Shown: positions 3,654 through 20,994 of the stretch, piece by piece | Layout: each line of letters opens with the position of its first letter | Position numbering within the stretch: position 1 is the stretch's first letter | Source of the DNA: a gamma proteobacterium symbiont of Stewartia floridana | Lineage (GTDB): Bacteria; Pseudomonadota; Gammaproteobacteria; Chromatiales; Chromatiaceae | Direction of reading: 5' to 3' | DNA length: 64,000 nucleotides | NCBI GenBank assembly: GCA_003676145.1 | Contig: NAUB01000020.1 | Coordinates: 186,001 to 250,000 of the forward strand | Notes under the pieces: model-generated | Told to the model about the DNA's origin: nothing | Database searches by the model: none | Seen by the model: only the letters and a program-made list of their open reading frames with translations | Made by a program: the position numbers and the translations under genes

Positions 3654-4574
3654 ATGAGAGCCAAATCCAATTCCCCCTCAATTGTGGGCACTCTATGTCT
3701 GGGTCTGCTTATGTTTATACCACCGGAAGCCACTCAAGCGAGCTGTCCTGAGGGCAATCGCTATCTGGATCTGGCTAAAAAATCGGGCAGCCAGCAGGAT
3801 TTTTCTCAAGCGGTCACCTGGCTTGAACGTTCAGTTGAATCCTGTGATTCCTATGATGCCTGGCACCTGATGGGTATGGCACAACAGAAACAGCGAAATC
3901 TTAAGGAAGCGTTGAATGCCTACTCCCAAGCGGCTGAGTTGGCACCGAACGACCAAAGTGCAGCGATCTCCATAGCCCGCTATGGGCAGACACTGGCGCT
4001 CAATGGGCAACGCTATGAAGCATTGACGATGCTCGAACGCGCTATGGATATGCATCCCAATCCTCCATCATGGATTCAAAACACCGCCAAACAGATCGAT
4101 CTGAATATTGTTGACCAACCCATCTCAAGGGAGTCGATCAAACGCAGCCTCTCCACTCAGGAGTTCGGCCTGCTCGCCAGCGTTCGCTCAAAAACCAAAG
4201 GCGGGTCAAAATCAGATACCGCTTCCAGCCGAATCCGTATACCAATCAATTTTGAGTATGACAGCATCAATCTGGATGAACTGACACAGAAGAATCTTGC
4301 CCAGCTGGGCGCTGTACTGTCCGAAGACAAATATCATGACAGGACATTTACCCTGATTGGTCATACAGACGTACGCGGCACAACCCAGTACAATCACAAT
4401 CTCTCTGAATCCCGCGCTGAGGCTATCGAACAGGAACTGGTGGAGAACTTCCCCGGATTAAAAGGCAGATTGAAGATCAAAGGTGCAGGAGAATCCTCAC
4501 CCAAATATAAGGGTCAGAAGATCAGCGAGGATGAACACCGTTTGAACCGTCGCTTGGAAGTATTCATAAACTAA
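3654..4574 (+). CDS. TPR-OmpA family envelope protein
   Basis: A 306-residue protein. An N-terminal signal peptide ends near ATQAS at about residue 30. Residues 35-150 form TPR-like helical repeats. Residues 195-306 are an OmpA-type peptidoglycan-binding domain with GHTDVRG (Asp239), the Arg of SESRAEAI (Arg254) and a terminal NRRLEVFI. It should sit in the periplasm or outer membrane, hold on to peptidoglycan and present a protein-binding TPR surface. AGGCAGGTGAG precedes the ATG. Only four bases separate it from the kinase gene, so they form one operon and the protein may scaffold or sense for the kinase (inference). Confidence 0.85.
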   Translation: MRAKSNSPSIVGTLCLGLLMFIPPEATQASCPEGNRYLDLAKKSGSQQDFSQAVTWLERSVESCDSYDAWHLMGMAQQKQRNLKEALNAYSQAAELAPNDQSAAISIARYGQTLALNGQRYEALTMLERAMDMHPNPPSWIQNTAKQIDLNIVDQPISRESIKRSLSTQEFGLLASVRSKTKGGSKSDTASSRIRIPINFEYDSINLDELTQKNLAQLGAVLSEDKYHDRTFTLIGHTDVRGTTQYNHNLSESRAEAIEQELVENFPGLKGRLKIKGAGESSPKYKGQKISEDEHRLNRRLEVFIN

Positions 4575-4578
4575 AAAG

Positions 4579-6483
4579 ATGGATGATCTACCAGAACTCG
4601 AAGGTTACCGCATCATTGAGCGTATCGGTGAAGGTGGTATGGCCACTGTATATCAGGCTGTACAAGATGGGCTTGAACGTCAGGTTGCATTAAAGTTTCT
4701 TGCCCCGCATCTGGCAAAGGATGAGCAGTTCGCACAACGTTTTCTCAGGGAAGCCCGCATCGTCGGCCAACTATCCCATGCGCACATAGTCCCGGTCTAT
4801 GAAGTCGGTGAAAAAGAGGGCCACTACTATCTCTCCATGGAGTGGCTGAGTGGAGGTGATCTCCATAGCATGATCCGTGGTGGATTATCGGAAACACAAA
4901 AGCAAACCATTCTGACTCAGATCACCCAGGCCCTGCGTTATGCACACAGACAGGGTTTTGTCCACCGGGATATCAAACCCGACAATATTCTGTTCCGTGA
5001 TAGTGAAACAGCGGTTGTCACGGATTTTGGTATCGCCCGGGAGCTTTCCAAACAGACAGGATCGGTTGAGCAGACCTCCGTCGAATCAGTGATCGGCTCG
5101 CCAAGATACATGAGTCCGGAACAGACACGATGCGAACCCCTGGACGCACGCACGGATCTATACAGCCTCGGCGTTATCGCTTGGTTGATGCTAACTGGAG
5201 ACTTTCCTCATAAAGGCAAAACTTTGACCGATATTGCAATCGATCGGCATAACAACCCCAACCCACTGCTCCCCACACACCTGGCCAGATGGCAACCACT
5301 GTGCGATGGATTACTGGCATACCGGAAGGAGGATCGTTTCGCCGATTGTGATGCGGTACTGCAAGCACTGGAACAGCTTTTTAACGGCGCCACCAAACAT
5401 GCTGACAAGATAAATCATCAGGATAATCGAACTGCGGTATTTACCCCACTGGAGGAGGAAATTTCAGGAGGGCAGACCACCGTATATAACATTGATGACT
5501 CAACCCATACAGGGGAAAACAAAAAAAAGTATTCGGTAACACTCATCTTAAGCCTGGTCAGTCTGCTGACAGCAGCCGGTTCGTTCATCTTGTGGAACCA
5601 ATTCTCACAGCAAACGCCGCAAATCGCAGCAGAGATACCTTCCCAAGGCCCTCAAGCAACAGACATAGCAGCAACCAGATCTCAGCAACTCACCAAAGAC
5701 TCGGCACCTCAACAACCGACACCCCCCCAACCCGAGCAGAAAATGGAACTCAGCGCCTCGATTGAGGTGAAGCAACCAGTCACTGAAGAATCCGAGCGTG
5801 AAGACATCGAACCAGTCAAAAACAATCAGTTAAACACCCCTTCATCCGGGGAGTATTTCGCCTTTCGAGATACCATCAAACAAAACACGGCCGAGGCAGC
5901 AGAGAGCTTTCTGGTAGCCTATCCCAACAGTATTTTGTCTGAAATTATCAGGGTGTATGTCTTACAACAGACTGAACGCGTAGCAAAACTGGAAGAGAGC
6001 GCAAAGGCAGGAGGCGTTGAAGCTCAACTGGTACTAAGTGAGCTTTCCACAACAGGATGGGGCATGAACAAGGACCAGGTACGTGCCAAAGAGTACGCCG
6101 AATCTGCCGCACAACTGGACCAGCCTTTCACCAACTATCACCTGGCAGCCCTGCTGTTAGCTCAGAGCTCTCCCGACTCTCCGGTTGACGGCCGTATTAC
6201 CCGGTTACTTGAAGAATCCGCTGATGCCGGTTTTTTTCTTGCTCAGACCCTATTGGGTAATCTGCTATTTACCGGGCGCATCGAGGTAACAGAGAGTGAA
6301 CAGAAGGGCTTGGCCCGCTATCAACAAGCAGCAGCCCAAGGTGACCGAAACGCACTATTCAACCTCGGACTGATCTATGACTCAGGCTTAGGCAATACCC
6401 CTCAGGATCAGCAACAGGCTGAGGTCTATTTCAAACAAGCTGCAGCACTGGGCCATCCACAGGCCTCAGACTATATTCCTTAG
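4579..6483 (+). CDS. Membrane Ser/Thr protein kinase with periplasmic Sel1-like repeats
   Basis: A 634-residue protein. Residues 8-265 are a Hanks-type kinase with GEGGMATVY (glycine loop 17-25), Lys39 in VALKF, HRDIKPDN (Asp131), DFG (Asp149) and SPRYMSPEQ; all catalytic residues are present. A Pro/Gln-rich linker surrounds a single membrane span at about 319-340. Residues 480-634 carry Sel1-like repeats that would face the periplasm. This is the PknB layout with a Sel1 sensor instead of PASTA domains. The most obvious partner is the double-FHA protein at 13038, since FHA domains bind phosphothreonine; the ABC exporter or the sigma-54 activator could also be substrates. Neither link has been shown. 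Confidence 0.9.
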   Translation: MDDLPELEGYRIIERIGEGGMATVYQAVQDGLERQVALKFLAPHLAKDEQFAQRFLREARIVGQLSHAHIVPVYEVGEKEGHYYLSMEWLSGGDLHSMIRGGLSETQKQTILTQITQALRYAHRQGFVHRDIKPDNILFRDSETAVVTDFGIARELSKQTGSVEQTSVESVIGSPRYMSPEQTRCEPLDARTDLYSLGVIAWLMLTGDFPHKGKTLTDIAIDRHNNPNPLLPTHLARWQPLCDGLLAYRKEDRFADCDAVLQALEQLFNGATKHADKINHQDNRTAVFTPLEEEISGGQTTVYNIDDSTHTGENKKKYSVTLILSLVSLLTAAGSFILWNQFSQQTPQIAAEIPSQGPQATDIAATRSQQLTKDSAPQQPTPPQPEQKMELSASIEVKQPVTEESEREDIEPVKNNQLNTPSSGEYFAFRDTIKQNTAEAAESFLVAYPNSILSEIIRVYVLQQTERVAKLEESAKAGGVEAQLVLSELSTTGWGMNKDQVRAKEYAESAAQLDQPFTNYHLAALLLAQSSPDSPVDGRITRLLEESADAGFFLAQTLLGNLLFTGRIEVTESEQKGLARYQQAAAQGDRNALFNLGLIYDSGLGNTPQDQQQAEVYFKQAAALGHPQASDYIP

Positions 6484-6534
6484 CTATTCACGCTGAATGT
6501 TCTGTTACTGCAGGAGGTTCACAGCCAGTAGAGT

Positions 6535-7797
6535 TTAAGGTTTAAAGGATTTCGACTTGATTCCATGTTTTTTCAGCAAAGTCTGCAGGTAGGATCGATT
6601 GATATCAAGCTCCTTTGCAAGATTCACGACACTGCCTTGAGTGCGCATAAGACCCTGCCTCAAGAACTCCTTCTCTGCTTCATTGCCAGCAATTTTCTTG
6701 ACTTGATTCAGCGGCATGGTGCCATCGATTTCACTCACAGCTTGAGCCGGCTGCTCATCATGGTCCTGTAGAACAACCGATGGTAGATGTTGTATATCAG
6801 CGACATCATCAGCAAGGCAGGAGATTCTGTAGATCAGATTCCTCATCTCTCTGATATTACCCGGGTAGTGATAATCATCAAGGAACTGTGATAATCCCTT
6901 GCTGATCCTGATTGGCTCCCGTTTCAGGTTTTCCGCTGCTTCTCGTGCAAAAAAGTCGTACAGAAGAGGAATCTCATCTTTGCGCTCCCTTAATGGAGGC
7001 AGCGTCGCATGAATCACCCCGAGACGATAATAGAGATCCTCCCTGAAGGTGCCGTCACGGGCCATTTGAGCCAAATCCCGGTTTGTTGCGGCGACCACCC
7101 GCACATCGACCGAAACAACCTGATCGGATCCGACACGCTGTAACTCCCTTGACTGAAGCACCCTTAACAGTTTCACCTGACCGACCAGTGGCAGCTCGCC
7201 GACTTCGTCGAGGAAGATAGTGCCTCCATCCGCACTTTCAAAGTGCCCCTTACGATCAGCCGTTGCACCGGTAAATGCACCCTTCTTATGGCCAAACAGT
7301 TCCGACTCGATCAAGTTTTCCGGTATCGCGCCACAGTTAATGGAGATGAAAGGCTGATCGCTACGCAATCCATTGGCATGGATAACCTTTGCAAACAGCT
7401 CTTTACCTGTACCACTCTCACCTTCGATGAGTATTGGAAGATCAGTCGGTGCGGCTCTTCTGACAATTTCCAGGGCGGTCAGTAATCCAGGACTCTCACC
7501 AAGCACACCCTGAAAACCAAGCTCAGCATAATTGCTCTGCTGCTTTCTCTTGCTGGTCGATTTTTTTGCCACTGACTCCTGGGAGTCGTCCGCATCTTTA
7601 GACTCATCCAGCTGTTTCGATCTCGACAACAACAATATTTTGCTGCGCAAAGATTTAAGTTCGTCCAGTATCTGAGTAACACCCTCCTGATCAAGGCTCT
7701 TACTCAAGCGTAAGCGAGAGCGTAGGATCTCTATTCTCTCTATCACTTCGCCATACTGCGGCAGTTCCTGCTGTTTACTGAATTTAAATGGTTTCAT
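6535..7797 (-). CDS. Sigma-54-dependent activator without receiver domain
   Basis: A 420-residue protein. Residues 1-90 are a charged, probably coiled-coil N-terminus rather than a receiver or GAF domain. An AAA+ domain follows with Walker A GESGTGKE (125-132), the sigma-54 contact loop GAFTGA (173-178) and Walker [11 protein letters not shown] Fis-type helix-turn-helix lies at about 380-415. It should therefore remodel RpoN holoenzyme at promoters with distant upstream sites. It is the last gene of the export operon and overlaps the ABC gene by 4 bases. With no phosphoacceptor domain, control may come through the N-terminus, perhaps via the kinase/FHA proteins. Likely targets are the shared promoter blocks at 3418, 17350 and 19902 (inference). 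Confidence 0.9.
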
Positions 7798-10700
7798 TGG
7801 TCTGAGGTGATTTGCTTGTTAACTAATTGTTGGTACATGCCGCCCTTTTGCAAAAGGGATTCATGCGTACCCTGCTCGACAATGGAGCCGTTATAGAGTA
7901 CTAGAATCTGGTCCGCTTTCATGACCGTGCTTAAGCGATGCGCGATAACCAATGTGGTACGACCTTCAAGAATCCCATCCATGTTGCTCAACACGTTACC
8001 TTCGGATTGCGCATCCAGAGAGGAGGTGGCTTCATCAAGGATGAGTACTTTCGGGTTTTTATAGAGTGCTCTGGCAATACAGATTCGCTGCACCTGTCCG
8101 CCGGAGAGTCCTACACCCCGCTCACCGACTCTCTGTTGATAGCCCATCGGCATGGCACTGATGAAGTCATGAGCATCGGCCAGTTGTGCTACCTCGATGA
8201 TTCGTCTGCGATCGGGGTCGTCGTCTCCTACAGCAATATTCTCTTCAATCGTCCCCTGAAAGAGCATGTTCGACTGCATAACATAACCAACCTGAGCACG
8301 AAAACACTGCTTCTCAACGGTTTGAAGGTCGTAGCCATCGACCAGAATACGGCCTTCGTTTATCGGATAGAAACCCATCAACAGTTTGGCCAAGGTGGAT
8401 TTACCAGAGCCACTAAGTCCTACCAGGGCCACCATCTGTCCGGCAGGAATATCCAGGCTGATATTCTGCAGAATGTATGGCTCGTTGGCCTCACCATAGC
8501 GAAAGTAGACATTTTCCAGTTGAAAATGACCCTCAAGGTCAGGGATTACAACCTGATTGTTCAGGTCCGCCGGTGACTGTTCAGGTTCCACATCGAGAAC
8601 ATCACCCAACCTTTCCATTGCCACCAGTGATGAGTGAAATTCATCCCATACTCCCACAAGCGCCATCAACGGCCCCATCACACTGGCTGCCAGCATATTG
8701 AATGCAATCAGCTGACCGATCGAGAGATCCTGCTCCATCACCATGCTGGCCCCGAAGAAAAGCACTGCAACGGTACCACCGATATTCAACAACTGACTGA
8801 CCAGTCCAATTCGCTCCTGGAAGCCCGCTGCTTCGTACTGGACGTTTAACGCCTTGATATAACGGTTTTCCCATTTCAACCTGACAGGCCGTTCGATGCC
8901 CATTCCCTTCACAGATTCAGCCTGACTCAAGGCCTCCATCAGAACAGATTCCGCGTCTGTCGATGTTTCAAATACCTTGCGGCTGTAATCCTTCATCTTT
9001 GGTGTGATCAACACCACCACGATCACTAATGGGACAATGAATGCCATCAGTATCAGGGTAAGCTGCACACTGTACAAAAGCATTACGGTCAGATAGACCA
9101 CAACCATCATGGCGTTCAACAAGGTGCCTGATACCTGCGAAGTCATGAACTCGCGGATCGTCTGATTTTCCTGAAACCTGGCGATGATATCCCCGGTGCG
9201 CCGACTGGAGAAAAATGACATCGGCAGCGCCAGGGTATGGGCAAAAAACCCTGACATCATGGCAAAATCGATGCTTCGGGTCATAAAATTGGAGAGAAAA
9301 CTTCGCACCAGCGTCGATACCTGAGCAAACACCTGGCTCATCACCAAGGCGATGATTAGCGCGTATAACAGATTGAAATTTTCGTGCACCACCACACGAT
9401 CAAGAACATTTTGCGTTATCACCGGCGGTATCAGTCCGAGTAGCTGTATGACCAGTGCTGCAATAAAAATATGGATCAGGGTACGCCGATGGGGTGTTAC
9501 ATAACCAAAAAATCGTTTCCAGGGTGATTCTCCACTCTCCTCTTGCCACTTCAGCTCCCCAGGCGTCAGTGTCAGACAGGTCCCTGTCCAACCCCGATTG
9601 AACTCCTCATGGGTCAATTTGCGAAAACCCGGTCCAGGATCTGCCACCCACACATGCTCTTTCGAATAACCGTATACAACCACAAAGTGGTAGCCTTCCC
9701 AGTGAGCAATAAACGGCAGAGACAACTCTTCCAATCCAGTCAGGGTGGTCTGCACCCCTCTGGCATGAAATCCCAGAGACTCTGCAACCTGCGCCACCCG
9801 CTCAAGATTAGCCCCTTGTTGATCGACACCGATCAGATCACGTAATTTGCCTAATGACAGCGGTAAACCGTGCTGCTTGCAAATCATGGTGAGACAGGCA
9901 GCGCTACAATCCATCTCCTCAGCCTGTTGTACCAGAGGAAAGCGCTTGATTACCTTTTCGTTCGACTTTGCTTCGGTTTCCAAGTCGAGATTTGTTTTCT
10001 GCTGATTGATCCCTCGCACCCGTTGCTGACGTACCAACTCCCGGTCAAGAAAAGAGATCCGTTCTTCGATCACAGCTCGTAACTTGGGATTCTTATCGAG
10101 GATGGTACGCACCGTACCTTCAGGAATCACAAACAGGGTAACATCACTCAGCGCGACTGCCTTGGCCATCTGTGATTGACGAAGCAGGCAGGCTTTTTCA
10201 CCGAATATCTCCCCAACACCAAGATTCGCCAAGGTATACACCGCATCATCCGAATCAGTGACCTGAAGTGAAACCTTACCCTGTCGAATCACATACAGAC
10301 GCCGGTCATCGCGACTCTCCTGCTCAAGGATGGTTGCGCCTTTGGCCAGATTCTTGATACCGACACTGGCAACCAAATCAGCTATCTCTTCTGCAGAGAC
10401 ACGACCTCGAAGATCAAACAACTGACTCACCAGGCCACCCAGCGCGCCTATTGCCGCCATACTGGCCATAAAGTCTCTGGCTTTGGGATTGGATTCCAGA
10501 ACCGGTTTAAACGACTCCCTGGAGAACCAGACAGCCGTACCAGCACCGGATCCACGAATGGTGAATTCACTCTTTACTGAACGTAAAGCCCCGATCTCTC
10601 CAAATACCGCGCCAGCTTTTCGCGTATCGACACTGACTTCCTTATCACCACTATCCTCTAAAAGACGCACGCGTCCGGATAGCAGCAAACAGAGGCCTGG

Positions 10701-10868
10701 AATCTCATCACCTGAGCTCAGCAGGTTGTCACCGAGTTTGAATTTCTGCAGTTTGGCGCTGTCAGCCAACTGAACTCGTTGCTGCTCACTCAGTGCTGAA
10801 AGAAATGGACTTTCAGCCATCAATTCAAGCAGAGACTCAGTAGATTGAGCTTTATCGTTCACTGTCAC
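7794..10868 (-). CDS. ABC exporter with two cyclic-nucleotide-binding domains and C39 peptidase
   Basis: About 1024-1038 residues. Numbered from the upstream GTG at 10910, two CRP-type cNMP-binding domains lie at about 35-155 and 175-290. A C39 peptidase lies at 322-450 with an intact triad (Cys335 in EEMDCSAAC, His408 in GYHFVVVYG, Asp424 in VADPGPG) and Gln329 for the oxyanion hole. Then come the ABC membrane domain and an ATPase with GLSGSGKST, LSGGQVQR and ILDEATSS. C39 exporters cut leader peptides after a double glycine during export. The start is uncertain: GTG at 10910 overlaps the previous gene by 43 bases, while GTG at 10868 overlaps its stop by one base (TAGTG), which I prefer. It forms a type I machine with the HlyD and NodT-like neighbours. 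No double-glycine substrate is evident nearby. Confidence 0.92.
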   Translation of the reverse strand: MTVNDKAQSTESLLELMAESPFLSALSEQQRVQLADSAKLQKFKLGDNLLSSGDEIPGLCLLLSGRVRLLEDSGDKEVSVDTRKAGAVFGEIGALRSVKSEFTIRGSGAGTAVWFSRESFKPVLESNPKARDFMASMAAIGALGGLVSQLFDLRGRVSAEEIADLVASVGIKNLAKGATILEQESRDDRRLYVIRQGKVSLQVTDSDDAVYTLANLGVGEIFGEKACLLRQSQMAKAVALSDVTLFVIPEGTVRTILDKNPKLRAVIEERISFLDRELVRQQRVRGINQQKTNLDLETEAKSNEKVIKRFPLVQQAEEMDCSAACLTMICKQHGLPLSLGKLRDLIGVDQQGANLERVAQVAESLGFHARGVQTTLTGLEELSLPFIAHWEGYHFVVVYGYSKEHVWVADPGPGFRKLTHEEFNRGWTGTCLTLTPGELKWQEESGESPWKRFFGYVTPHRRTLIHIFIAALVIQLLGLIPPVITQNVLDRVVVHENFNLLYALIIALVMSQVFAQVSTLVRSFLSNFMTRSIDFAMMSGFFAHTLALPMSFFSSRRTGDIIARFQENQTIREFMTSQVSGTLLNAMMVVVYLTVMLLYSVQLTLILMAFIVPLVIVVVLITPKMKDYSRKVFETSTDAESVLMEALSQAESVKGMGIERPVRLKWENRYIKALNVQYEAAGFQERIGLVSQLLNIGGTVAVLFFGASMVMEQDLSIGQLIAFNMLAASVMGPLMALVGVWDEFHSSLVAMERLGDVLDVEPEQSPADLNNQVVIPDLEGHFQLENVYFRYGEANEPYILQNISLDIPAGQMVALVGLSGSGKSTLAKLLMGFYPINEGRILVDGYDLQTVEKQCFRAQVGYVMQSNMLFQGTIEENIAVGDDDPDRRRIIEVAQLADAHDFISAMPMGYQQRVGERGVGLSGGQVQRICIARALYKNPKVLILDEATSSLDAQSEGNVLSNMDGILEGRTTLVIAHRLSTVMKADQILVLYNGSIVEQGTHESLLQKGGMYQQLVNKQITSDQ

Positions 10869-11614
10869 TATACCTGCACTTGTAAAACGTTGGCCTGGTC
10901 TTGAATCCACTGCTCATAAAGCTGCTTTTGAATGAGTTCCCGGATTAAATCTGACAGCTCTGCTGGCTCCTTACGGGTAACAAGAAAGATCTCAAAATGA
11001 TCCTCCATCGATGCCTCGAAAGGTCCCAATGGTTCTCCAATTTCCGCATTGAAGATCTGCGCCTCAAGCTCCGCATCCAACTCCCCCCGATAAACCATAC
11101 CGATCGCGCCGCCCTGTTGCGCCGAATCGGCCACGGAATACTCGCGTGCCAGATTGTCAAATGTCTCATCACCGTCCTCAAGCAAAGAGACGATTTCATT
11201 TGCCTGAGGTTCACCTTCCACTACCAGATGACTGACTTCAACAGAGTCGTATTTCGGAGAGTTGAGTGTGAAATAGGATTCAACAGAATCAGTCGATTGA
11301 ACCTGGTCACGCATCTTTCTTGCCAACAGGTTATCTTCCAGAAACGCCTCGAAGACATCCAGCGTTGCTCCAGCATCATCCAGAAACTCATTGGTATCAC
11401 TGGCGCGATGCAAACCGAATGCACGACGACTTTCATCAGCGGCAGCCTGCAACTCATCTGCCGACGCTTGCATGCCGGATTTGCGTGCCGCGCAGGCAGC
11501 CATTTTTTCTTTGATGTAGTCCTCGATAACCTGATTGAAGCGTCCGGAAAGCTTCAGCCAGATGACAAAATCATCACTGCTTAGGCTTTGCCCATCTATT
11601 TTTACGATATCCAT
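10868..11614 (-). CDS. Parvulin-type peptidyl-prolyl isomerase, no signal peptide
   Basis: A 248-residue protein with a helical N-terminus resembling the SurA/PrsA chaperone region (about 10-115) and a rotamase domain at about 122-218 (VEVSHLVV, YSVADSAQQGGAIG, GPFEASMEDHFEIFLV). Unlike SurA and PrsA it begins directly with MDIVKIDGQS and has no signal peptide or membrane span, so it should be cytosolic. GAGGAAC stands before the ATG. It lies between the HlyD adaptor and the ABC exporter, which suggests it holds or folds the export substrate before secretion. The family assignment is firm; the role as an export chaperone is inferred from position. Confidence 0.85.
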   Translation of the reverse strand: MDIVKIDGQSLSSDDFVIWLKLSGRFNQVIEDYIKEKMAACAARKSGMQASADELQAAADESRRAFGLHRASDTNEFLDDAGATLDVFEAFLEDNLLARKMRDQVQSTDSVESYFTLNSPKYDSVEVSHLVVEGEPQANEIVSLLEDGDETFDNLAREYSVADSAQQGGAIGMVYRGELDAELEAQIFNAEIGEPLGPFEASMEDHFEIFLVTRKEPAELSDLIRELIQKQLYEQWIQDQANVLQVQV

Positions 11615-11657
11615 TATTGTTCCTCATTTCTTTGCGGTTTCTTTTTCATGGTAAAAA

Positions 11658-13034
11658 TCAGTTACTGACTCCACGCAATGGATCAAGAGCAAGATCGATA
11701 AAGCGCCTCTCACGCACCACCATTTCAGCCAAAGCCCCCATACCATAGGTCAGCGCTATCTCTCCTTGCGGGGTGTTAATGGTCTCCCGGGACAGTTTTA
11801 CGCGACCAAGATAGGCCGGTATTTCGTTGGCTTTTACCTGGGTGGCGGTTGGCGAAATATATTCGAGGGTACCGGCAACCGATCCGTAATTTCGATAGGG
11901 AAAGGCATTGAACTTAAGTTTTACCGGCAACCCTGTTTTAAGGAAACCGCGATCCTTTTCCGCGATTTTAATCCGTACGATTCGCTCGGCATCGACCGGC
12001 GCGATACTGATCAACGGTCGGCTTGCCTCTACTTTCTCGCCCAACTGAGTGCTCGAAACCTCGGTCACGACACCGGAAACGGGAGCATATAACTTCAGAT
12101 AGTTATCTTCATCGAAGTTGTCGAAGCTGAGCCTCTCAGCAGCACTCGCTGCCAGTTCAGCGCTACGTAGCTTGAAATTCAGTTTTGCTGACTCTTCCTC
12201 AATTTTTTGTACCGCTGTGGCGTACTGGACTCCAAGCTCGGCCACCTCCTGGCGCAGTGAAGAGAATTCAGAGTCCGCTTGGCTGATTGCCTGACTTACC
12301 TCATACTCAAGACCGGCCAGCCTTGCCTGTACGGAACGGCTTTTTGCCTTTGCATCCAGCAACGCCTCCTGCTTTTGTCGCACTTGATTCCTTGAAACCC
12401 CGCCGCCACCGGCTGAAGCAAACAGACGCTCATATTTCTCAGACTCAAGTCGCGCTGTTTTTTCAGCACGAACCGCCTGTTCAAGTTGAGCACGAGACTC
12501 TTCCAAGCGAGCTCTTTGCGCTTCTGTTACTTGTGAAAGACCTGCCGCCTCACGGCGTTTGAACTCCCGACGCTTTGCATCCAACTGTACCTTCAAGGCA
12601 TCTGATTTCTCCTGCAATAGCACCCGCTTTTGAGGAAACAACTCAACCTCACTGCGCACCTGTGCCAACTTGAGTCTTGCCTCCTGCGCTCTACTGGCCG
12701 CCTCCACTGCACCTCTTGCATTGATTCGGGCAATGATGTCACCCGCCTCTACTGGCGCACCGGTTTCCACATAGATACCACGCAACTCCCCATCCACTGG
12801 CGGATATACACGTCGAAGATCCTGTTTTGGCTGCAATGTGCCAGTTGCTGTCACAATCACATCGGCCTTGGCAAAGAAAGCCCAGATCAATGCGCATACA
12901 ATCAGTGCCAGAATCGTCAGGTTGACAGCAAAAAGCAGTTTTGCAGGTTTACCCAGCAGCACCTCGATTCCATCACGCTGATGATCATAGAGCGAGCTTT
13001 TGAATGAGGGTAAAGTACTATTATTCTTAGACAC
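11658..13034 (-). CDS. HlyD-family periplasmic adaptor of the type I exporter
   Basis: A 458-residue protein. There is a short cytosolic tail, one membrane span at 33-55, a lipoyl-like half motif (VYPPVDGELRGIYVETGAPV), a long coiled coil at about 110-300, the second lipoyl half (LYAPVSGVVTEV) and a beta-barrel domain. This is the membrane-fusion protein that bridges the ABC pump at 7794 and the outer-membrane channel at 15380. The start is a GTG at 13034 preceded by GGAGGAG, which lies inside the end of the FHA gene; the gap between the two frames is three bases, so they are probably translationally coupled. Confidence 0.92.
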   Translation of the reverse strand: MSKNNSTLPSFKSSLYDHQRDGIEVLLGKPAKLLFAVNLTILALIVCALIWAFFAKADVIVTATGTLQPKQDLRRVYPPVDGELRGIYVETGAPVEAGDIIARINARGAVEAASRAQEARLKLAQVRSEVELFPQKRVLLQEKSDALKVQLDAKRREFKRREAAGLSQVTEAQRARLEESRAQLEQAVRAEKTARLESEKYERLFASAGGGGVSRNQVRQKQEALLDAKAKSRSVQARLAGLEYEVSQAISQADSEFSSLRQEVAELGVQYATAVQKIEEESAKLNFKLRSAELAASAAERLSFDNFDEDNYLKLYAPVSGVVTEVSSTQLGEKVEASRPLISIAPVDAERIVRIKIAEKDRGFLKTGLPVKLKFNAFPYRNYGSVAGTLEYISPTATQVKANEIPAYLGRVKLSRETINTPQGEIALTYGMGALAEMVVRERRFIDLALDPLRGVSN

Positions 13035-13037
13035 AGT

Positions 13038-15383
13038 TCACTCCTCCGGAACAGGTATCAAGGCTAGCTTGGCATTGACAACGGCGGGCTCGAGCACGCT
13101 GGTCAGCCGGTCAAGGGCAAGGCGCTGCCGGATCGCTTCTTCTGAAATGTCTTTATAAAGCGAATCCGCTTGAGCCTGCACTTCATCATCAAGAAAGAAA
13201 CCCAACTCTCTGGCATTTTCCGCCCTGTGCATGGCAGTCTGAAGATGCTCTGCCTTTTTTCGAAAACGTGAGGTGACACGGGGCTCAAGCCTCATACTGC
13301 TGTCTATACCGCCCCGATCCGCCTGATAGCTTTGCCAGGCTACTTGAGCTTGCTGTAAACGCTCTGTGGCCAGTGACTTGATTTCTGATTCAAGCGGTTG
13401 TAAACGCTCGGAGACCTGCTGCCTGAGCCACTTGTCCTTACCAGCATCCAGACTCAAATAGAGCGCACTCAACCTGTTCGCATACTGCGTCGAATCCAAA
13501 TCTACTGCGTCACTGCTGTTCAGTACCTCGAACTCTTGCAAATGGCTTCGCCACTGGCCGAACAACTCATCCGCAGATAATCCCCAGGGTCCAGCTGCAA
13601 GGCGTTCCATTTCTGACAGTGCCGGTTGAATCTCACCCCTGGCCCAATTATCACTCGCTATTGAAAAACGCTCAGCCATCACGTGAGCGTCCTCAAGGTG
13701 GGTAAACTGTCGATTTGCAGCGTCTTGAAAAAGTGGCGTTTTAAATGACAACTCAGTTCGAAGCTCAGCAAATGCTCGTAAATTTTTTTCGTTTAGTGCT
13801 GAAGACACGCTGCGAAATAGTCGCAGGTCTCCTAATAATTCGTCAGCCCCTTTGATCCCTGGATAGCGCTTAGAAAAATCCTGAACGGTTTCTTCCAGCC
13901 CGGATAATTCATCTGATAGCAAAGCTTGTTTCACCTCACCTTTCAGATTCTCGATGACCGGCAGATAGGTATTTGCTTGATTCTTCATCATACGAAGTAT
14001 TGACAGAGCCTCATGGTATACTGGTTTCAAGTCAGGATAATTCTCAATCACACTTCGCAAAACCGGTGATTGCTGGCTTGCCGGTTTGGCTGAACTTTCA
14101 AGCAGACCAGACAACTTCTTTTCATCCACAAACAGGCTGGTTTGTTTGAAATCACGGGTTGCCTGGCGAAATTCTGCCGCTTCTGTCACCCATAACAGGG
14201 TACCGGCCCATTCAGGTTTATCCCCCTCGCCCAACTGTTGTTGCAACGCATTAATCAGTTGGCTGGCCTGGGAAAAATTCTGCTTCTGATAGGCAGACAA
14301 CCATTCAGGTATGACGGAATCCATCATCGCCTGCTGCATGGCTTGGCGCACATCAACATGCTGCGGATTCTCCGATAGGAACGCCTGAGCCAACAACATC
14401 GCCTGTTTGGATTGACCTTCAGCCAATAGCGACTGAATCTGTTTCGGTCGATCATCCTGATTAAAGAGGTAGACAACAACAAACACACAGACCATCAACA
14501 GTGTCGCAGCTACAGCTTTTTGGAGCTTGGTAAGTTGACTTAAATTTAACCCTGGCATCAGTTGCTTGTCTTGCTGATGTTGCTCTTCCTGCACGATGTC
14601 TGATGCGATGTTTTCCGACTCTGCTTGCACATCGCCCGGACTGGATTCACAGTAGATATCAAGAAACGAATCGGCTTTGGAGACCAGAATGGTTCCCTGG
14701 GGAAGACTACTGGTTTTGCTTACCGGCAATAGCTCAAAACGAAAACTGACACCATCCTGACCAAAGGCTATGGTATCTCCCGATTGCAGAGATCGGGTTG
14801 AACCTCGTTCTCTTTCACCGTTCACCCAGGTTCCGTTGGTACTGCTCAGGTCCTCGATCAAGATCTTTTCACCATCTCGGCTTAGCTGAGCATGACGTCT
14901 CGATAAAAAGCTGAAAGCATAAGGCTGCTTTTCAGCCCAGGCGGCAAGCGCCGGCTGCTCCTTCCCTATCAGAAAGGGCAACTGTTGAATTGAGACAGGG
15001 TCAAGGTCGTAATGAGTATCACTCGGTGTCAGTAGAAGGTTGACCTCAGTTTCTGCCAAACCTGGCCTGAAGTCAGTTGCTTCAATACCAATCTTGTAGG
15101 CCAGGTCAACACCAAAGATCAGAATGTCACCGTCCGCCAACTCAACCGGACTGGTTCCTAAAGCATCTCCGTTAAGCGTCGTACCCTGATCACTACCGAG
15201 TTCGACTACATAGATCGTCTCTTGGTCCTGAAAGATCCGGGCATGGCGCTCAGAGAGTTGCTGCCGGTAGTTTTCAGGCAGATCGCGAAACTCTGCCTCG
15301 TTTGATCCGATCGGCAGCAGCACATCGTTGACTACGATACTGGCCAGGCGTTTCTCGGTGAGCGCTTTCAGAGTTACCTTCAT
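13038..15383 (-). CDS. Membrane protein with two FHA domains and a long helical C-terminus
   Basis: A 781-residue protein. FHA domain 1 is at about 20-100 (SERHARIF, GTTLNG). FHA domain 2 is at about 135-218 (SRRHAQLS, DLSSTNGTWVNG) and has the better-preserved phosphothreonine-binding loops. A single membrane span lies at about 289-307. The remaining 470 residues are Gln/Leu/Ala-rich helix, probably TPR-like or coiled coil, and would be periplasmic. Phosphothreonine read-out in the cytosol joined to a periplasmic arm suggests a gate or assembly platform that links the Ser/Thr kinase to the exporter. It lies between the outer-membrane channel and adaptor genes and overlaps the former by 4 bases. 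No family with known function was recognised for the C-terminus. Confidence 0.85.
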   Translation of the reverse strand: MKVTLKALTEKRLASIVVNDVLLPIGSNEAEFRDLPENYRQQLSERHARIFQDQETIYVVELGSDQGTTLNGDALGTSPVELADGDILIFGVDLAYKIGIEATDFRPGLAETEVNLLLTPSDTHYDLDPVSIQQLPFLIGKEQPALAAWAEKQPYAFSFLSRRHAQLSRDGEKILIEDLSSTNGTWVNGERERGSTRSLQSGDTIAFGQDGVSFRFELLPVSKTSSLPQGTILVSKADSFLDIYCESSPGDVQAESENIASDIVQEEQHQQDKQLMPGLNLSQLTKLQKAVAATLLMVCVFVVVYLFNQDDRPKQIQSLLAEGQSKQAMLLAQAFLSENPQHVDVRQAMQQAMMDSVIPEWLSAYQKQNFSQASQLINALQQQLGEGDKPEWAGTLLWVTEAAEFRQATRDFKQTSLFVDEKKLSGLLESSAKPASQQSPVLRSVIENYPDLKPVYHEALSILRMMKNQANTYLPVIENLKGEVKQALLSDELSGLEETVQDFSKRYPGIKGADELLGDLRLFRSVSSALNEKNLRAFAELRTELSFKTPLFQDAANRQFTHLEDAHVMAERFSIASDNWARGEIQPALSEMERLAAGPWGLSADELFGQWRSHLQEFEVLNSSDAVDLDSTQYANRLSALYLSLDAGKDKWLRQQVSERLQPLESEIKSLATERLQQAQVAWQSYQADRGGIDSSMRLEPRVTSRFRKKAEHLQTAMHRAENARELGFFLDDEVQAQADSLYKDISEEAIRQRLALDRLTSVLEPAVVNAKLALIPVPEE

Positions 15384-16819
15384 TGCACCGACTCCTCATT
15401 CCAGCCACCGCCCATGGCTTTATACAGGGTCAAGGTTTCTGAAAGAATCTGTTGGCGATTATTCAATAAAGTCTGTCTCACACTAAGCAATCTGCGTTCC
15501 GACTCAAAAACTTCCAACTGAGTGGCGATTCCCTCCCGCATTTGAGCAGCAACCTGCAGCTGCACATCACTCAGATGCTGCTCTTCACTGAACAACTCCT
15601 GCCGTTGAGCGCGGCGTGCCGATAGATTGACCAGCGCATCTTCAACTTCCTGAAACGCGATCAGCACGGTTTTTCGATACTTAGCCTCTTCCGTTTTTTT
15701 GCTCGCTTCGTTGCGCTTGATGCGAGCCTCGGTATCGGGATTGAAAATGGGAAAGTTGATGTTCGGCGTCAGACCAAAGGTGAACGTCTTTAAAAAGGTA
15801 TTCAGCGCCGCACTGGCCAGGGAAGAGCCACTCTGAGCATTCGTGGTCAGACTGATTGAAGGGAGTTTTGCGAGCTTCGCCTGCCCCACCAGCTGATGCG
15901 CCTCCAAAACCCGGTATTCTGCCGCCAGAATATCCGGCCGACGCCGCAGCAACTGGGAGGGCAAACCGGCAGGAATCGGCATATCGGCGATCTTGAATGA
16001 ATCATCCGGTTTAGGTACTTGCAGATTACCCGCCGGTTGACCCAGCAGGGTGGCTAAAGCATTTTCAGTAATTTTTCTTTCACGCTGCAGATCGATCAAT
16101 GTTCGCTTGAGCGAGTTAAGCTCTGCTTGCTGACGCAAGACCTCTTTACTGGAGACCAAACCCTCTCTGTTCTGGCTTTTGTAGATCGCCAGTATCTGAT
16201 CCGCACTGCTCAATGAGGCCTGCTGGATATCGATCTGTGCATCAAATTGACGGATCAGAAAATAGCTGGAGGCAACCTGGGTGGCAGTATTCAGATAGAC
16301 AGCCCGCCAATCCGCTTGCGACGCTCGATAGGCCGACTGCTTGGCCTCAACCCCCTTCTGCAGCTTGCCCCAGATATCCAATTCCCAGTTCAGTTTGGTA
16401 TTCAAAGAGTACTGACTGTTGGTCTCATAATCATTGCTCACGGGATTTCGTGAGTAGCTGACCGGTGTGGTGAGGCCGGAAGAGAGTGAAGGCAGGGTGC
16501 GGGCTTCCACCTCACCGATCGCCGCACCGGCTTGATTCAGCCTGGCCATGGCAATCGCCAGATCCGAGTTCTCCCGTATCGCCAGCTCAATCAACTGATT
16601 CAGATAGGGATCCTCAAAACCTTTCCACCATTGAGGATCGATAGCATCAGTTGCAGCATCCGCGGAATCCGCGACCCAGCCCGCTTTATCCGGTGTGGTG
16701 GGTTTGACGTAAGGGGTTTCAGAGAGAGTCTCGCACCCACTCAGATAGATCAAACCGCAAACCAGGACAGATTTGATGACCTTGTTATTGTTCGTCGTTA
16801 TGGCTGTAACTATCGACAT
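15380..16819 (-). CDS. NodT/TolC-family outer-membrane efflux lipoprotein
   Basis: A 479-residue protein. It has a lipoprotein signal (GLIYLSGC, Cys29) followed by the duplicated OEP domain of the NodT family, including SYFLIRQFDAQI, LLRRRPDILAAEYRVLEAHQLVGQA and a coiled-coil C-terminal repeat. It would be lipidated in the outer membrane and form the trimeric exit duct. GGGAAG precedes the ATG. It is the first gene of the minus-strand operon running to 6535. NodT-type ducts more often serve RND pumps, so its use with a C39 ABC exporter is notable but is strongly implied by the shared operon. Confidence 0.9.
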   Translation of the reverse strand: MSIVTAITTNNNKVIKSVLVCGLIYLSGCETLSETPYVKPTTPDKAGWVADSADAATDAIDPQWWKGFEDPYLNQLIELAIRENSDLAIAMARLNQAGAAIGEVEARTLPSLSSGLTTPVSYSRNPVSNDYETNSQYSLNTKLNWELDIWGKLQKGVEAKQSAYRASQADWRAVYLNTATQVASSYFLIRQFDAQIDIQQASLSSADQILAIYKSQNREGLVSSKEVLRQQAELNSLKRTLIDLQRERKITENALATLLGQPAGNLQVPKPDDSFKIADMPIPAGLPSQLLRRRPDILAAEYRVLEAHQLVGQAKLAKLPSISLTTNAQSGSSLASAALNTFLKTFTFGLTPNINFPIFNPDTEARIKRNEASKKTEEAKYRKTVLIAFQEVEDALVNLSARRAQRQELFSEEQHLSDVQLQVAAQMREGIATQLEVFESERRLLSVRQTLLNNRQQILSETLTLYKAMGGGWNEESVQ

Positions 16820-17397: not shown

Positions 17398-17435
17398 ATT
17401 GATACAACTTTTAAATCAGACTGAGGAAACAGATC

Positions 17436-18320: not shown

Positions 18321-18334
18321 ACAAACCCCATATT

Positions 18335-18376
18335 GAAGCGGAGAGGCTCTACTCACCAGGCGAGTCTCTCCACTTC
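18335..18376. terminator. Stem-loop after the Sel1 gene
   Basis: GAAGCGGAGAGGCTC pairs with GAGTCTCTCCACTTC around a 12-base loop with two internal mismatches. No T run follows, so it may be a processing or attenuation structure rather than a full terminator before the Cys-rich genes. Confidence 0.45.
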
Positions 18377-18421
18377 AAAGCAAACGTCATTTCAGATTTT
18401 GTAACTTAAAGGTAACCACAG

Positions 18422-18847: not shown

Positions 18848-18950
18848 AGGCCACTTCAACCGACAGCAAACCAATCAGGCTTTTGAGATCACTCTCAGCT
18901 AACGGATCAATCTCAATTTGAGCCTTTATAGCATCAATCGGAAAGCTTAA

Positions 18951-19433: not shown

Positions 19434-19977
19434 ATTAGCGCCTTGGCTATTTTTCTTTGACAGTTACTCCCTGCCCCCTGCTGATGAGCCATGACAGAGT
19501 GTTTTCACGCCTCATTGATATGGCTGGAGCAAAAACAAGATGTCGCTTAGCAACCATGGTATCGGACAAGCATCGTGGACCGACACTTAAACCCTCAACC
19601 GAGCGAAGCCAAAACGGCCCACTCCCTGCACAACAATGCCGACCGGAAGCCACAGAATCCTACTCGCACATCAAGCTGTATGCGCGATACGCAGCGATTC
19701 CTTTAAAACCGCAGCCGCCGAAGACAACGATCGCGGAACAATCCTATTTTTTTGTTTTTATTTACATTACTAATTAGTTGCCTAATACAAATCTATCCAA
19801 GAGATGTTATCAGCTGAAAAACCCGGAAAGAAAGACAAAACCCATAATATTTCTTTAATTATCATATTGTTATAAATTTTTTTGCTCACAACGAGCAAAG
19901 CTGGCACGCATCCTGTAATAGCTATACCAACGATTCAAAACGAATCATTGATCAACCTAAAAAAGGATACCGAAACC
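19434..19977. other. Intergenic region ahead of the secreted 338-residue protein
   Basis: The first half (to about 19740) has ordinary composition and holds only weak open frames. The second half (19745-19900) is very AT-rich. It holds the promoter block at 19902. I see no gene or RNA that I can support. Confidence 0.55.
19902..19947 (+). promoter_or_regulatory. Shared promoter-like block, copy 3 (sigma-54-like)
   Basis: TGGCACGCATCCTGTA is followed at +29 by CGATTCAAAACGAATCA. The GATTC-N5-GAATC repeat sits at nearly the same place as in the block at 17350. TGGCACG is a perfect -24 element, but the -12 is CTGT instead of TTGC. It is 76 bases ahead of the ATG of the secreted protein. Confidence 0.45.
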
Positions 19978-20994
19978 ATGAAACACCTGACTACCGCACT
20001 GTTACCTCTGCTCATGATCTCTTCCTATGCCAGTCATGCTCAGAACCTTAAAACCGTCCCCCTTCAGGAGAACGGCACAACCACGGCTTACGTCTCAGTA
20101 CCCGCTGATGTCCGTTGCAACGTGCAGATTCCTGACGCACCCACCGCATTCTGCGCCGGCAGTGGCAACCGTATCTACCACCTCACTGCAGCATTCCTGC
20201 AGCACCCGGTGGATCCACAACAGTATTTCAACCAGTTGGTACAACAACTCAGCGCCGAGGCCCCAGAAGCGAAGATCGTAAATCAGTACCGAGTACCCGA
20301 AATCACCCAGCATATGGCAAACCGTGACACCCAACTGGTCTACAAAAACGGACAGCAGGTTGTGACCTACGCGATTGATATCATTGACGCGGAGACCAAT
20401 GAAAAGAGCTCTGCGGCCTTCGTCATCAGCTCTCTGCCGAACAACGGTGCGCCGGTAACCAATGTGGACATCATCGGCTTTACCGCACCCATGTCAGGCT
20501 CATCCGACTTCAGCGGTGTACGCAGTGAAATGATCCGTTTTGCCCGCTCCTATCGATTCGATCGCAGCTGGGTACAGGCCGCCAATGCGCAGCACATTCA
20601 ATTTCTCAATAACCAGACTGCAAAAAACAACGCATTCACAGCCCGACAGAATCAGATTCATCAGTCAAATATGAATGCACTGGATCAGAGCTTCAACAGC
20701 TACATGGAGAGAAGCGCAGCGTCCGACCGAGCTCACAGCAGCTACATGAACAACAGCTACGCATCCGACAGTTCGCACAGCTCTTACATCGACTCCATTC
20801 ATGAAAGAGAGCAGATGGTAGACGCCTCGACCGGCACCCGTTACGAGGTTGAAGGTTACTATGACTACAACTACGTAAACCCCAATGATTCAAGCATGTA
20901 CATTCAATCCAACGATCACATGTACAACCCTAACGTAAATCTGAATCAGGGCGAAAACTACAACCTGCTACAGCCTTACAACGGCAACTACTAG
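19978..20994 (+). CDS. Secreted Ser/Tyr/Asn-rich protein of unknown function
   Basis: The start at 19978 is preferred because AAAAAAGGA precedes it and a signal peptide follows at once (MKHLTTALLPLLMISSYASHA); the frame is open upstream to 19882 but lacks these signals. The 338-residue product has a globular part (about 22-195, two cysteines) and then a low-complexity tail with imperfect repeats of the type SYM..S.ASD..HSSY. It ends in a Tyr/Asn-rich stretch (GYYDYNYVNPND, LLQPYNGNY). Such tails occur in surface and matrix proteins. It has its own promoter block and terminator, so it is a single-gene unit and probably a major product of the regulon. Family not recognised. Confidence 0.75.
   Translation: MKHLTTALLPLLMISSYASHAQNLKTVPLQENGTTTAYVSVPADVRCNVQIPDAPTAFCAGSGNRIYHLTAAFLQHPVDPQQYFNQLVQQLSAEAPEAKIVNQYRVPEITQHMANRDTQLVYKNGQQVVTYAIDIIDAETNEKSSAAFVISSLPNNGAPVTNVDIIGFTAPMSGSSDFSGVRSEMIRFARSYRFDRSWVQAANAQHIQFLNNQTAKNNAFTARQNQIHQSNMNALDQSFNSYMERSAASDRAHSSYMNNSYASDSSHSSYIDSIHEREQMVDASTGTRYEVEGYYDYNYVNPNDSSMYIQSNDHMYNPNVNLNQGENYNLLQPYNGNY

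Follow-up and report, generated by a model that had tools for sequence, protein, structure and literature searches.

The 64,000-nucleotide stretch analysed here (the window), from a gammaproteobacterial symbiont of Stewartia floridana, carries an export operon that, together with its linked genes, probably specifies an RpoN-controlled type I exporter with a C39 peptidase domain, which would handle double-glycine peptides and be wired to a circuit of kinase, phosphatase and FHA protein. The recurrent gene order, the PP2C gene, the linked kinase, the leader peptides and the RpoN promoters together make this the most likely reading. The gene set, its order and linkage, the catalytic residues, the leader family and the promoter-like sites are established at the level of sequence, and the machine as a whole, which recurs in other genomes and is apparently undescribed, probably serves to process small peptides and carry them out of the cell.

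The export operon and its recurrence

An open-reading-frame check of the window recovered every gene named in an earlier, sequence-only reading at its position (Table 1). That reading had the locus start at 3654; its gene calls hold, but the block reaches further left and takes in the CHAT, TpsA, TpsB and PP2C genes. The tight packing it described for the export genes, with 4-base overlaps and GTG coupling, is borne out both by the junctions and by the recurrence of the same order elsewhere. The OEP and FHA genes overlap by 4 bases, as do the ABC exporter and activator genes; gaps of 3 and 43 bases separate FHA from HlyD and HlyD from parvulin, respectively, and the parvulin and ABC genes overlap by 43 bases with GTG as the start codon.

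By Pfam, the C39, transmembrane and ATPase domains of the exporter lie on a single chain, and the adaptor (HlyD) and the outer-membrane channel (OEP) are both encoded in the export operon. The OEP protein scores 289 bits against NCBIfam outer_NodT, above the cut-off of 210; a lipobox was spotted in it by eye. HlyD reaches 162.6 bits against type_I_hlyD, under the cut-off of 208.65. The top NCBIfam match of the parvulin, whose N-terminus has no hydrophobic stretch by hydropathy, is TIGR04500, a putative peptide maturation protein, at 85.7 bits and under the cut-off of 180. Pfam finds no receiver domain in the activator, and the HTH_8 match of this protein falls under the Pfam cut-off.

The relatives compared are 80 named loci, the best of 270; they come mostly from Paraburkholderia and other betaproteobacteria and for this reason are not independent samples. 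The order OEP, double-FHA, HlyD, parvulin, cNMP-C39-ABC and RpoN activator is kept in 65 of these best 80 loci, and in 61 of the 71 among them with sufficient flank. Such a count argues against chance and sustains the earlier proposal that the FHA protein, exporter and activator are one unit. Parvulin and activator are each present in 79 of the 80, HlyD in 68, and OEP and FHA in 66 each; the last three lie away from the exporter in 11 of the 80, ten of which are of Oxalobacteraceae type. Exporter residues Cys335, His408 and Asp424, which from their positions in the family we take to be the catalytic Cys/His/Asp of C39, are conserved along with the ATPase residues in 81 of 81 sequences, and the GAFTGA motif of the activator is present in 77 of 77. 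A first search of genome contigs with the FHA protein alone as query found no relative.

Table 1. Genes of the window and of its left flank (positions with the prefix L031 lie left of the window).
Feature	Position	Strand	Assignment and remarks
PP2C gene	L031:13351-14082	+	10.5 kb from activator
TpsB	L031:14135-15889	-	
TpsA two-partner-secretion exoprotein gene, 5' part	1..732	-	continues past left edge
TPR-CHAT (caspase-fold) protein	723..2711	-	Pfam CHAT 8e-60; accessory, overlaps TPS gene
TPR-OmpA protein	3654..4574	+	Pfam; accessory of Haliea-type module
Ser/Thr kinase, C-terminal Sel1 repeats	4579..6483	+	Pfam Pkinase 1e-51 and Sel1
RpoN (sigma-54) activator without receiver, GAFTGA, Fis-type HTH	6535..7797	-	Pfam Sigma54_activat 5e-71
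Exporter: two cNMP-binding, C39 peptidase, ABC transmembrane and ATPase domains	7794..10910	-	Pfam
Parvulin-type prolyl isomerase	10868..11614	-	Pfam Rotamase 2e-11
HlyD-type periplasmic adaptor	11658..13034	-	Pfam HlyD_3 3e-20
Double-FHA membrane protein	13038..15383	-	Pfam FHA, two stretches
NodT/OEP lipoprotein, outer-membrane channel	15380..16819	-	Pfam OEP 4e-45; first gene of export operon
Sel1 protein	17436-18320		Pfam Sel1

Leader peptides and RpoN promoters

Small peptides with a new double-glycine leader were found in 60 of the best 80 of 270 loci; a strict leader pattern gives 167 peptides in 60 of 82 loci and none in 20 shuffled loci. These likely substrates, like their RpoN promoters, had been overlooked in the sequence-only reading. 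The genome of the window has one leader peptide, encoded on another contig (G000:C32:173607-173684, leader profile E 8.5e-11) behind an RpoN-type promoter, and this peptide would be the substrate of the window's exporter. Across 210 genomes of the order, a peptide is present in 4 of 5 genomes with the exporter versus 3 of 205 without it (p 2e-6). When G062 is left out because its peptides are part of the leader profile, the counts are 3 of 4 versus 3 of 205 (p 5e-5). The one exporter genome of the five without a peptide at E 1e-5 is G555, where a looser pattern gives a peptide beside the exporter, with an RpoN site; G008, G559 and G561 have peptides and no full-length exporter.

In Massilia the leader matches form arrays of up to 12 per locus, and many of the listed Paraburkholderia loci have two peptide types, one on each side of the operon. 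The peptide adjoining the PP2C gene carries the motif xPWVYGWIxPYV, conserved from Burkholderiaceae and Oxalobacteraceae to Aromatoleum (alignment of 19 out of 37 distinct sequences found), and the mature parts in Haliea and locus L103 are almost identical. Many mature parts appear by eye to be Asn-rich and repetitive. The peptides scanned have no match over the cut-off in Pfam or NCBIfam, and none to Curlin in Pfam; AlphaFold modelled one of the peptide families with low confidence (mean pLDDT 45). A conserved hypothetical protein of 97 residues is encoded close by in 29 loci.

RpoN sites lie upstream of 115 of 174 peptide genes; in the controls the figures are 63 of 940 for random windows and 12 of 188 for reverse strands. 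Most export operons have no such site of their own (10 of 66 OEP genes at a score of at least 13), and the idea that the operon is generally RpoN-driven was dropped on this count. A shared promoter block, proposed from the sequence, was rejected as far as RpoN-type sites go: none in the window scores 13.5 or more, and the first 26 kb hold a single site of at least 13, inside the OEP gene. In the window's genome the exact RpoN pattern has 4 matches and its backward control 2. Pairs resembling CCAAC-N15-GTTGG were found in 24 of 99 upstream regions, versus a shuffle mean of 0.25; we do not rely on them as a candidate activating site, since the examples listed come mostly from related Paraburkholderia and the genome's own peptide shows just a pair of different spacing.

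The proposed phosphorylation circuit and competing readings

A PP2C gene, also overlooked in the sequence-only reading, accompanies the system in 65 of the 70 loci (among the best 80 of 270) that extend at least 4 kb past the activator. In 14 of 15 named genomes, which we chose out of the 80, a Ser/Thr kinase is encoded no more than 25 kb from the system, against a chance expectation of 0.44. Linked kinase, PP2C and FHA protein are all present with the system. The kinase, the TPR-OmpA gene and the Cys-rich genes had been expected to co-occur with the exporter; the kinase does so, in agreement with the claim that it belongs there, but TPR-OmpA and Cys-rich genes have no match in the best 80 of 270 loci. 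The window kinase has one transmembrane helix (320-338 by hydropathy). In the tree it forms a clade with the system-linked kinases of Haliea, G062 and G551 and with a G561 kinase that adjoins peptides (support 99/95). System-linked kinases as a whole do not form a single clade: an unlinked kinase of the window's own genome groups with the ones from Halioglobus and Marinobacterium, and the L106 kinase stands alone.

The FHA protein has one transmembrane helix at about 290-308 (hydropathy), and the helical part past it is presumably periplasmic. Its AlphaFold model has a mean pLDDT of 83 and a pTM of 0.49; in Foldseek the closest solved structures are FHA domains or proteins containing one, and the remainder gives only loose helical-repeat matches. 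Residues were assigned by what we take to be the phosphothreonine-site motif of FHA domains. By this motif, the GR arginine of FHA1 is kept in 61 of 66 family members and is Ser in the window's protein. In FHA2, SRxH and STNG are kept in all 66, and Lys replaces Arg in 65 of 66, including the window's protein. The Ser in place of a phosphate-binding Arg in FHA1, together with the FHA2 Lys, makes phosphothreonine reading uncertain.

In the mechanism that we favour, the operon-encoded RpoN activator would switch on peptide genes with -24/-12 promoters, in this genome the single gene on the other contig. In the cytosol the parvulin would hold or present the precursor, cleavage past Gly-Gly would fall to the C39 domain, and the mature peptide would leave through the ABC-HlyD-OEP conduit. 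The phosphorylation state of some component would depend on the linked kinase, whose outer part would lie in the periplasm, and on the PP2C phosphatase; the double-FHA membrane protein would read this state in order to gate or assemble the exporter. For the cNMP domains, nucleotide sensing of the kind reported for HetC is possible. As a fuller picture we suggest, tentatively, phospho-gated C39 release through the double-FHA protein, with cargo made under the activator of the same operon. This would be a stimulus-coupled 'load and release' of a surface layer or signal in betaproteobacteria and marine gammaproteobacteria, with C14 or CHAT proteins as frequent partners.

The operon might also encode a plain peptide exporter, with a structural FHA protein, a kinase and phosphatase that serve other pathways, and no phospho-gating. 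The missing FHA1 arginine and the FHA2 lysine would suit such a device, as would kinase distances of 18 kb in one and 31 kb in another of the 15 genomes (the latter being the one beyond 25 kb), a kinase within 10 kb of the exporter locus in just 6 of the best 80 of 270 loci, and five further kinases at E 1e-20 in the window's genome. We nevertheless consider it rather unlikely, given the frequency of PP2C, the kinase linkage against chance expectation, the grouping of the window kinase with system-linked ones, and the retention of GR in FHA1 and of SRxH and STNG in FHA2 across the family.

Class II microcins and bacteriocins typically have double-glycine leaders and C39 exporters, and the Massilia arrays would also fit if the exported peptides were microcin-like antibacterials with self-protection, under a regulation that serves competition. 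However, bacteriocins change fast, unlike the xPWVYGWIxPYV peptide and the near-identical Haliea and L103 mature parts, and the peptides scanned match no family over the cut-off, so that a microcin-like role seems unlikely. That the peptides serve as components of a surface or biofilm matrix is possible, though less likely than not. The Asn-rich, repetitive mature parts, the two peptide types flanking the operon, the TPS exoprotein and OmpA-like genes that adjoin the system in Haliea and in the window, and the EbfG1-4/PteB precedent in biofilm (PMC4997328) are consistent with it; the low-confidence model, the missing Curlin match and the different type of the mature part in the window's own genome speak against it.

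Very improbable as cargo or effectors are the Sel1, Cys-rich and Ser/Tyr-rich proteins encoded at 17436-20994, although their genes adjoin the export operon and the Cys-rich protein at 18422 has a Gly-Gly at residues 49-50. Its paralogue is without that Gly-Gly, both Cys-rich N-termini look Sec-like by eye, and the leader model yields no match there. In the best 80 of 270 loci no Cys-rich counterpart was found, no stand-alone Sel1 counterpart (similarity lies only within two C14-Sel1 genes), and for the Ser/Tyr-rich gene just 22- and 27-bit matches in two loci. The claim that these genes belong was accordingly rejected, and they probably lie outside the system. At E 0.1, Pfam gave no match for the two Cys-rich proteins or the 19882 ORF. 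Sec export had been proposed for these products; for the Cys-rich and Ser/Tyr-rich ones it is a by-eye reading, and in a crude hydropathy scan Sel1 and the first Cys-rich protein were flagged and the other two were not.

Known systems and the Haliea-type module

No named system matches in full in the full-text literature and family comparison, as had been proposed. The sequence-only reading missed that the core of the system, a cNMP-C39-ABC exporter with HlyD and a parvulin-type rotamase, is of a kind already known from cyanobacteria; the proteobacterial wiring (FHA, kinase, PP2C and RpoN on a C39 exporter) was not found in the full-text literature searched. Long-type C39 ABC exporters were described in cyanobacterial 'bacteriocin' clusters by Wang et al. 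2011 (PMC3140520). In the available text they share with the present system a C39 exporter extended at its N-terminus by about 300 residues, together with HlyD, a SurA/rotamase protein and double-glycine precursors. That text does not contain the words FHA, sigma or cyclic nucleotide, and its leader consensus differs from the present peptides. The window's exporter has the N-terminal cNMP extension and the HlyD and PpiC neighbours of this long type. On plasmid5 of Nostoc sp. HK-01 a 'cyclic nucleotide-regulated ABC bacteriocin/lantibiotic exporter' is annotated near HlyD and a PpiC isomerase; the annotation of that 16-kb stretch, where several genes are hypothetical, lists neither an FHA protein nor a PP2C, a kinase or an RpoN activator.

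HetC of Nostoc PCC 7120 has the same cNMP, C39 and ABC architecture, is an active cysteine peptidase and binds ppGpp through its N-terminal domain (PMC10986499). According to the accessible part of that paper it differs in that no substrate is assigned to it, no leader peptide gene was found near hetC and no FHA/PP2C/RpoN unit is described. In Synechococcus elongatus the small double-glycine proteins EbfG1-4 are secreted in biofilm via the C39 exporter PteB; there, as far as the available text goes, a secreted inhibitor regulates and no FHA or kinase takes part (PMC4997328). NHLP bacteriocin export (TIGR03794/03796/03797) likewise uses C39-ABC and HlyD for leader peptides. The present operon is without its second ABC gene, and the exporter and HlyD score 575.3 and 56.3 bits, below the 853.3 and 156.2 of TIGR03796 and TIGR03794.

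In type VI secretion, PpkA, PppA and Fha (Ser/Thr kinase, PP2C and FHA protein) are tied to the machine, with RpoN control in some cases. The present locus resembles this in linking a kinase, a PP2C and an FHA protein to machinery for secretion, which here is of type I; no type VI core (Tss) genes were found among the locus-neighbour proteins scanned with Pfam. The type VI threonine phosphorylation pathway is the subject of PMC5995506 and PMC9993120. A PADLOC scan of 10 proteins gave no specific multi-member match, and a known anti-phage defence system was rejected; the matches obtained, to the kinase (33 models, best PD-T4-6), the activator (RtcR-type) and the ABC ATPase (mad3), are read as shared domains.

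Type I exporters are, to our knowledge, usually regarded as ungated. A widespread operon that couples one to a kinase, a phosphatase, a putative phosphate-reading membrane protein and its own RpoN activator offers a new place for studying bacterial control of secretion. It adds a family of probable exported peptides and, since the likely cargo family and its promoters can be named, allows a direct test of phosphorylation gating of type I export in harmless bacteria from soil and sea whose genomes are sequenced. Carriers of the system include Paraburkholderia xenovorans LB400, Cupriavidus necator and Haliea salexigens.

Caspase-domain similarity occurs in 44 of the best 80 of 270 loci; a caspase was rejected as a fixed member, a C14 gene (E 1e-10) being present in 13 of 17 genomes and lying no more than 25 kb from the exporter in just 6. 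CHAT was rejected as an independent caspase partner, since its gene overlaps TpsA and accompanies TpsA/TpsB in both the window's genome and Haliea. TPR-OmpA, once held to be a partner of the system, was recovered only in Haliea salexigens, where its orthologue (54% identical) adjoins the orthologous kinase just past the locus. The Haliea cluster also has a CHAT orthologue (47% identical) and orthologues of the TpsA/TpsB/PP2C region, so that peptides, OmpA, kinase, CHAT, TPS, PP2C and exporter lie within one block in Haliea salexigens.

Gene layout and recurrence of the export operon

The window (G000:C31:186001-250000) comes from a genome of 4.55 Mb and carries a run of six export genes, with which the TPR-OmpA gene and the gene for a Ser/Thr kinase with Sel1 repeats are convergent. 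The exporter of 1038 residues combines two cNMP domains, a C39 peptidase domain, and the ABC membrane and ATPase domains; the FHA membrane protein has two FHA domains, and the RpoN activator is without a receiver domain. In this genome 10.5 kb separate the end of the activator gene from the PP2C phosphatase gene.

Coordinates of features in the window and in related loci (L, extracted loci; other coordinates are window positions)
Feature	Coordinates	Strand	Remarks
Six export genes, tightly packed	16819 down to 6535	minus	OEP/NodT channel, double-FHA protein, HlyD, parvulin, exporter, activator
CHAT	723-2711		left of TPR-OmpA and kinase
TpsA, TpsB, PP2C phosphatase	leftwards from 732		
Cys-rich tandem paralogues	18422-18847, 18951-19433		Sec-like N-termini; adjoin Sel1 protein gene; no Pfam match
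Arylsulfotransferase-like, PKD and two Lcl_C stretches in a single protein	23153-25957	minus	
Strong relative of the preceding protein	L100:2113-4038	minus	near a distant cNMP-C39 exporter
FHA-GAF-HD protein	L219:7973-9928	plus	Noviherbaspirillum; directly before OEP gene
C14 caspase and FGE-sulfatase-like protein	L109:3-1439	minus	like ORFs in 55/80 loci (L103-L182), adjoining export operon and kinase
Conserved protein, ~97 residues	L109:16576-16857	plus	beside LRAT-like gene; betaproteobacteria, 29/80 loci
Four leader peptides (genome G561)	L263:7698-16000		beside kinase, VWA-FHA and C14-Sel1 genes
Second module (G000:C19)	L254:1899-7098		near contig end; C14-Sel1, alpha/beta hydrolase, kinase

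Relatives were collected by a contig search with the cNMP-C39 part of four of them, and the best 80 of 270 were taken as loci. With every ORF that had a match included and a single strand required, the complete six-gene order was present in 65 of these 80 loci, a set dominated by one genus, and in 61 of the 71 where flanking DNA suffices; the ordered export set with FHA protein and receiverless RpoN activator, for which the sequence-only reading had asked, therefore recurs. The activator and the parvulin were each found in 79 of the 80. Eleven of the 15 exceptions (ten of Massilia, Telluria, Herminiimonas, Noviherbaspirillum and Paucimonas, and one MAG) have parvulin, exporter and activator only, with OEP, FHA and HlyD genes not adjacent; three (L106, L122 and L176) end at contig ends, and L113 shows exporter and activator alone at the thresholds used. 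In Noviherbaspirillum autotrophicum (L219) the detached OEP, FHA and HlyD genes are located beside the kinase. The FHA-GAF-HD protein of this locus is likely an HD-GYP-like c-di-GMP phosphodiesterase, and ORFs of similar size in L214 and L224 give weak FHA matches.

A full-length exporter was found in five of the 210 genomes of the window's order, and a phylum sample of 398 genomes gave an exporter match at E 1e-240 in 11, own genome included and two of them partial. More distant cNMP-C39 exporters (34-37% identity) likewise have HlyD, and their surroundings often include FHA, an activator or a parvulin as well as large OEP proteins; Pfam confirmed the FHA in L095 and L099 only. The catalytic Cys is replaced by Asn in two of them, L096 (G202) and L099 (G314). 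Three large OEP proteins follow in succession in L099, as if the cargo were an uncut protein.

Parts of this architecture have precedents. Sections of PMC3140520 describe long cyanobacterial C39 exporters with HlyD, a rotamase protein and double-glycine precursors, and a Nostoc plasmid carries the exporter/HlyD/rotamase trio as in the window. HetC shares the domains of the window exporter, its peptidase is active and its cNMP domain binds ppGpp (passages of PMC10986499), and EbfG and PteB are a double-glycine protein and exporter pair functioning in biofilm (passages of PMC4997328). Among the papers listed by full-text searches of the open literature, none named the combination of FHA, PP2C, kinase and RpoN genes with a C39 exporter; some of the peptide family may already have been published elsewhere.

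Double-glycine peptides and RpoN-type sites

One cluster of small ORFs, the likely cargo of the exporter, has 160 copies in 65 of the best 80 of 270 loci. Gram-negative double-glycine peptides were reportedly treated by Dirix et al. in 2004; here the clustered ORFs begin with a double-glycine leader, which in an alignment of 20 divergent ones has the form MxTLxIxDLxxxxxLDxxAMxAVRGG. The strict leader pattern gave 167 matches in 60 of 82 loci (the 80 and two of G062, an exporter-positive genome of the order) and, in 20 shuffled loci, no match against 54 in their real versions; a slightly looser one matched in 60 of the 80. Scanned members matched no Pfam or NCBIfam model above cut-off. The leader search found no such peptide within the window, and in the window's genome the leader profile has one match (E 8.5e-11; next best E 1.1). 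This match, on contig C32 and unlinked to the exporter on C31, is a protein of 111 residues, of which 26 make up the leader. Across the order, peptides occur in 7 of 210 genomes, namely in 4 of 5 exporter-positive versus 3 of 205 negative genomes (Fisher p 2e-6); two of the 20 profile rows derive from G062, and with this genome left out the values are 3 of 4 versus 3 of 205 (p 5e-5). The exporter-positive exception to the profile, G555, has a peptide beside its exporter by a looser pattern. Conserved mature parts and Asn-rich repeats weakly favor a surface or matrix role over that of a microcin. Exporter-adjacent arrays with 8 to 12 leader-pattern matches and several mature types were seen in Massilia (L174, L118, L150 and L136). 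In the genome of G561, whose four peptides are in the table, a full-length cNMP exporter was not found.

RpoN-type sites were scored with a fixed core GG-N10-GC, a score of at least 12.5 and a position within 300 bases upstream. They precede 115 of 174 peptide genes, at a median distance of 87 bases. As controls, random windows drawn from these loci had a site in 63 of 940 cases and reversed upstream regions in 12 of 188, 13 repeated rows being removed from the peptide count and kept in the controls; at least one site is present in 61 of 62 loci. Upstream of the own peptide gene, the site TGGCACGGTACTCGCA lies 79 bases from the start codon. Exact matches to TGGCACGNNNNTYGCW number four in the own genome, this one included, versus two for the backward pattern; by eye, the genes behind the other three showed no leader peptide. 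In the 65 loci with the full order the activator is the last gene of the operon, and the GAFTGA loop is intact in all 77 activators compared; the simplest reading would therefore be that the operon's own activator regulates the cargo genes. Betaproteobacterial maps place PP2C downstream of the peptide in the same orientation, and the peptide promoter may therefore serve both genes. Dyads resembling CCAAC-N15-GTTGG, a candidate activator binding site, occur upstream of peptide genes (24 of 99 upstream regions, e.g. L126, L134 and L138).

Phosphatase and kinase

PP2C was present in 65 of the 70 loci reaching at least 4 kb past the activator. Because only 6 of 80 loci had a kinase within their 10-kb flanks, whole genomes were searched for the kinase family at E 1e-20; these 17 comprised the own genome, G062 and 15 from the 80, hand-picked for spread and long contigs. 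The exporter has a kinase within 25 kb on its own contig in 14 of these 15, and at 31 kb in the remaining one, versus 0.44 of 15 expected by chance from kinase numbers and genome sizes; linkage was also seen in the own genome and G062. The proposal that the kinase belongs with the export genes is supported by this linkage.

A tree built on 27 kinase domains places the window kinase (99/95) with the linked kinases of Haliea, G062 and G551 and with that of G561, which adjoins peptides. A second clade (100/100) consists of twelve system-near betaproteobacterial kinases and one more own kinase, from contig C19. As the unlinked kinases came from the own genome only, these clades arise partly by construction. 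The C19 kinase adjoins a C14 caspase-Sel1 gene that is the orthologue of the exporter-adjacent one in G062. For Halioglobus and Marinobacterium the linked kinases cluster with an unlinked own kinase, and the kinases of L106 and others have long, unsure branches. From the gene linkage we infer that phosphorylation may gate export. FHA1 of the window protein is without the phosphate-binding arginine kept in most family members.

Accessory neighbors

The sequence-only reading had also counted Sel1, Cys-rich and Ser/Tyr-rich proteins as members, which the 80 loci did not support: no match to the Cys-rich pair occurred among them, Sel1 similarity occurred only within two C14-Sel1 genes, and the Ser/Tyr-rich ORF gave only 22- and 27-bit matches in two Halieaceae loci. 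CHAT and TPR-OmpA likewise had no match there; both recur in Haliea salexigens. In this closest match a single stretch contains the six export genes together with two double-glycine peptides, TPR-OmpA (54% identity to the window protein), kinase (41%), CHAT (47%), TpsA, TpsB (47%) and PP2C (41%). It is the window set in a different order, which suggests that OmpA, CHAT and TPS form a lineage-specific accessory module.

Among the betaproteobacterial C14/FGE-like proteins the caspase part was found in 44 of 80 loci and the FGE part in 28, and some copies may be cut or without the caspase part; DUF4399 (54 of 80) and LRAT-like proteins (46 of 80) are further neighbors. Recurring neighbors in other gammaproteobacteria are C14-Sel1, VWA-FHA and small FHA proteins. 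A family search gave a C14 gene in 13 of 17 genomes; in 6 it lies no more than 25 kb from the exporter, which speaks against the caspase as a fixed member. The position of C14/FGE is held by C14-Sel1 in some gammaproteobacteria and by CHAT in the window and Haliea.
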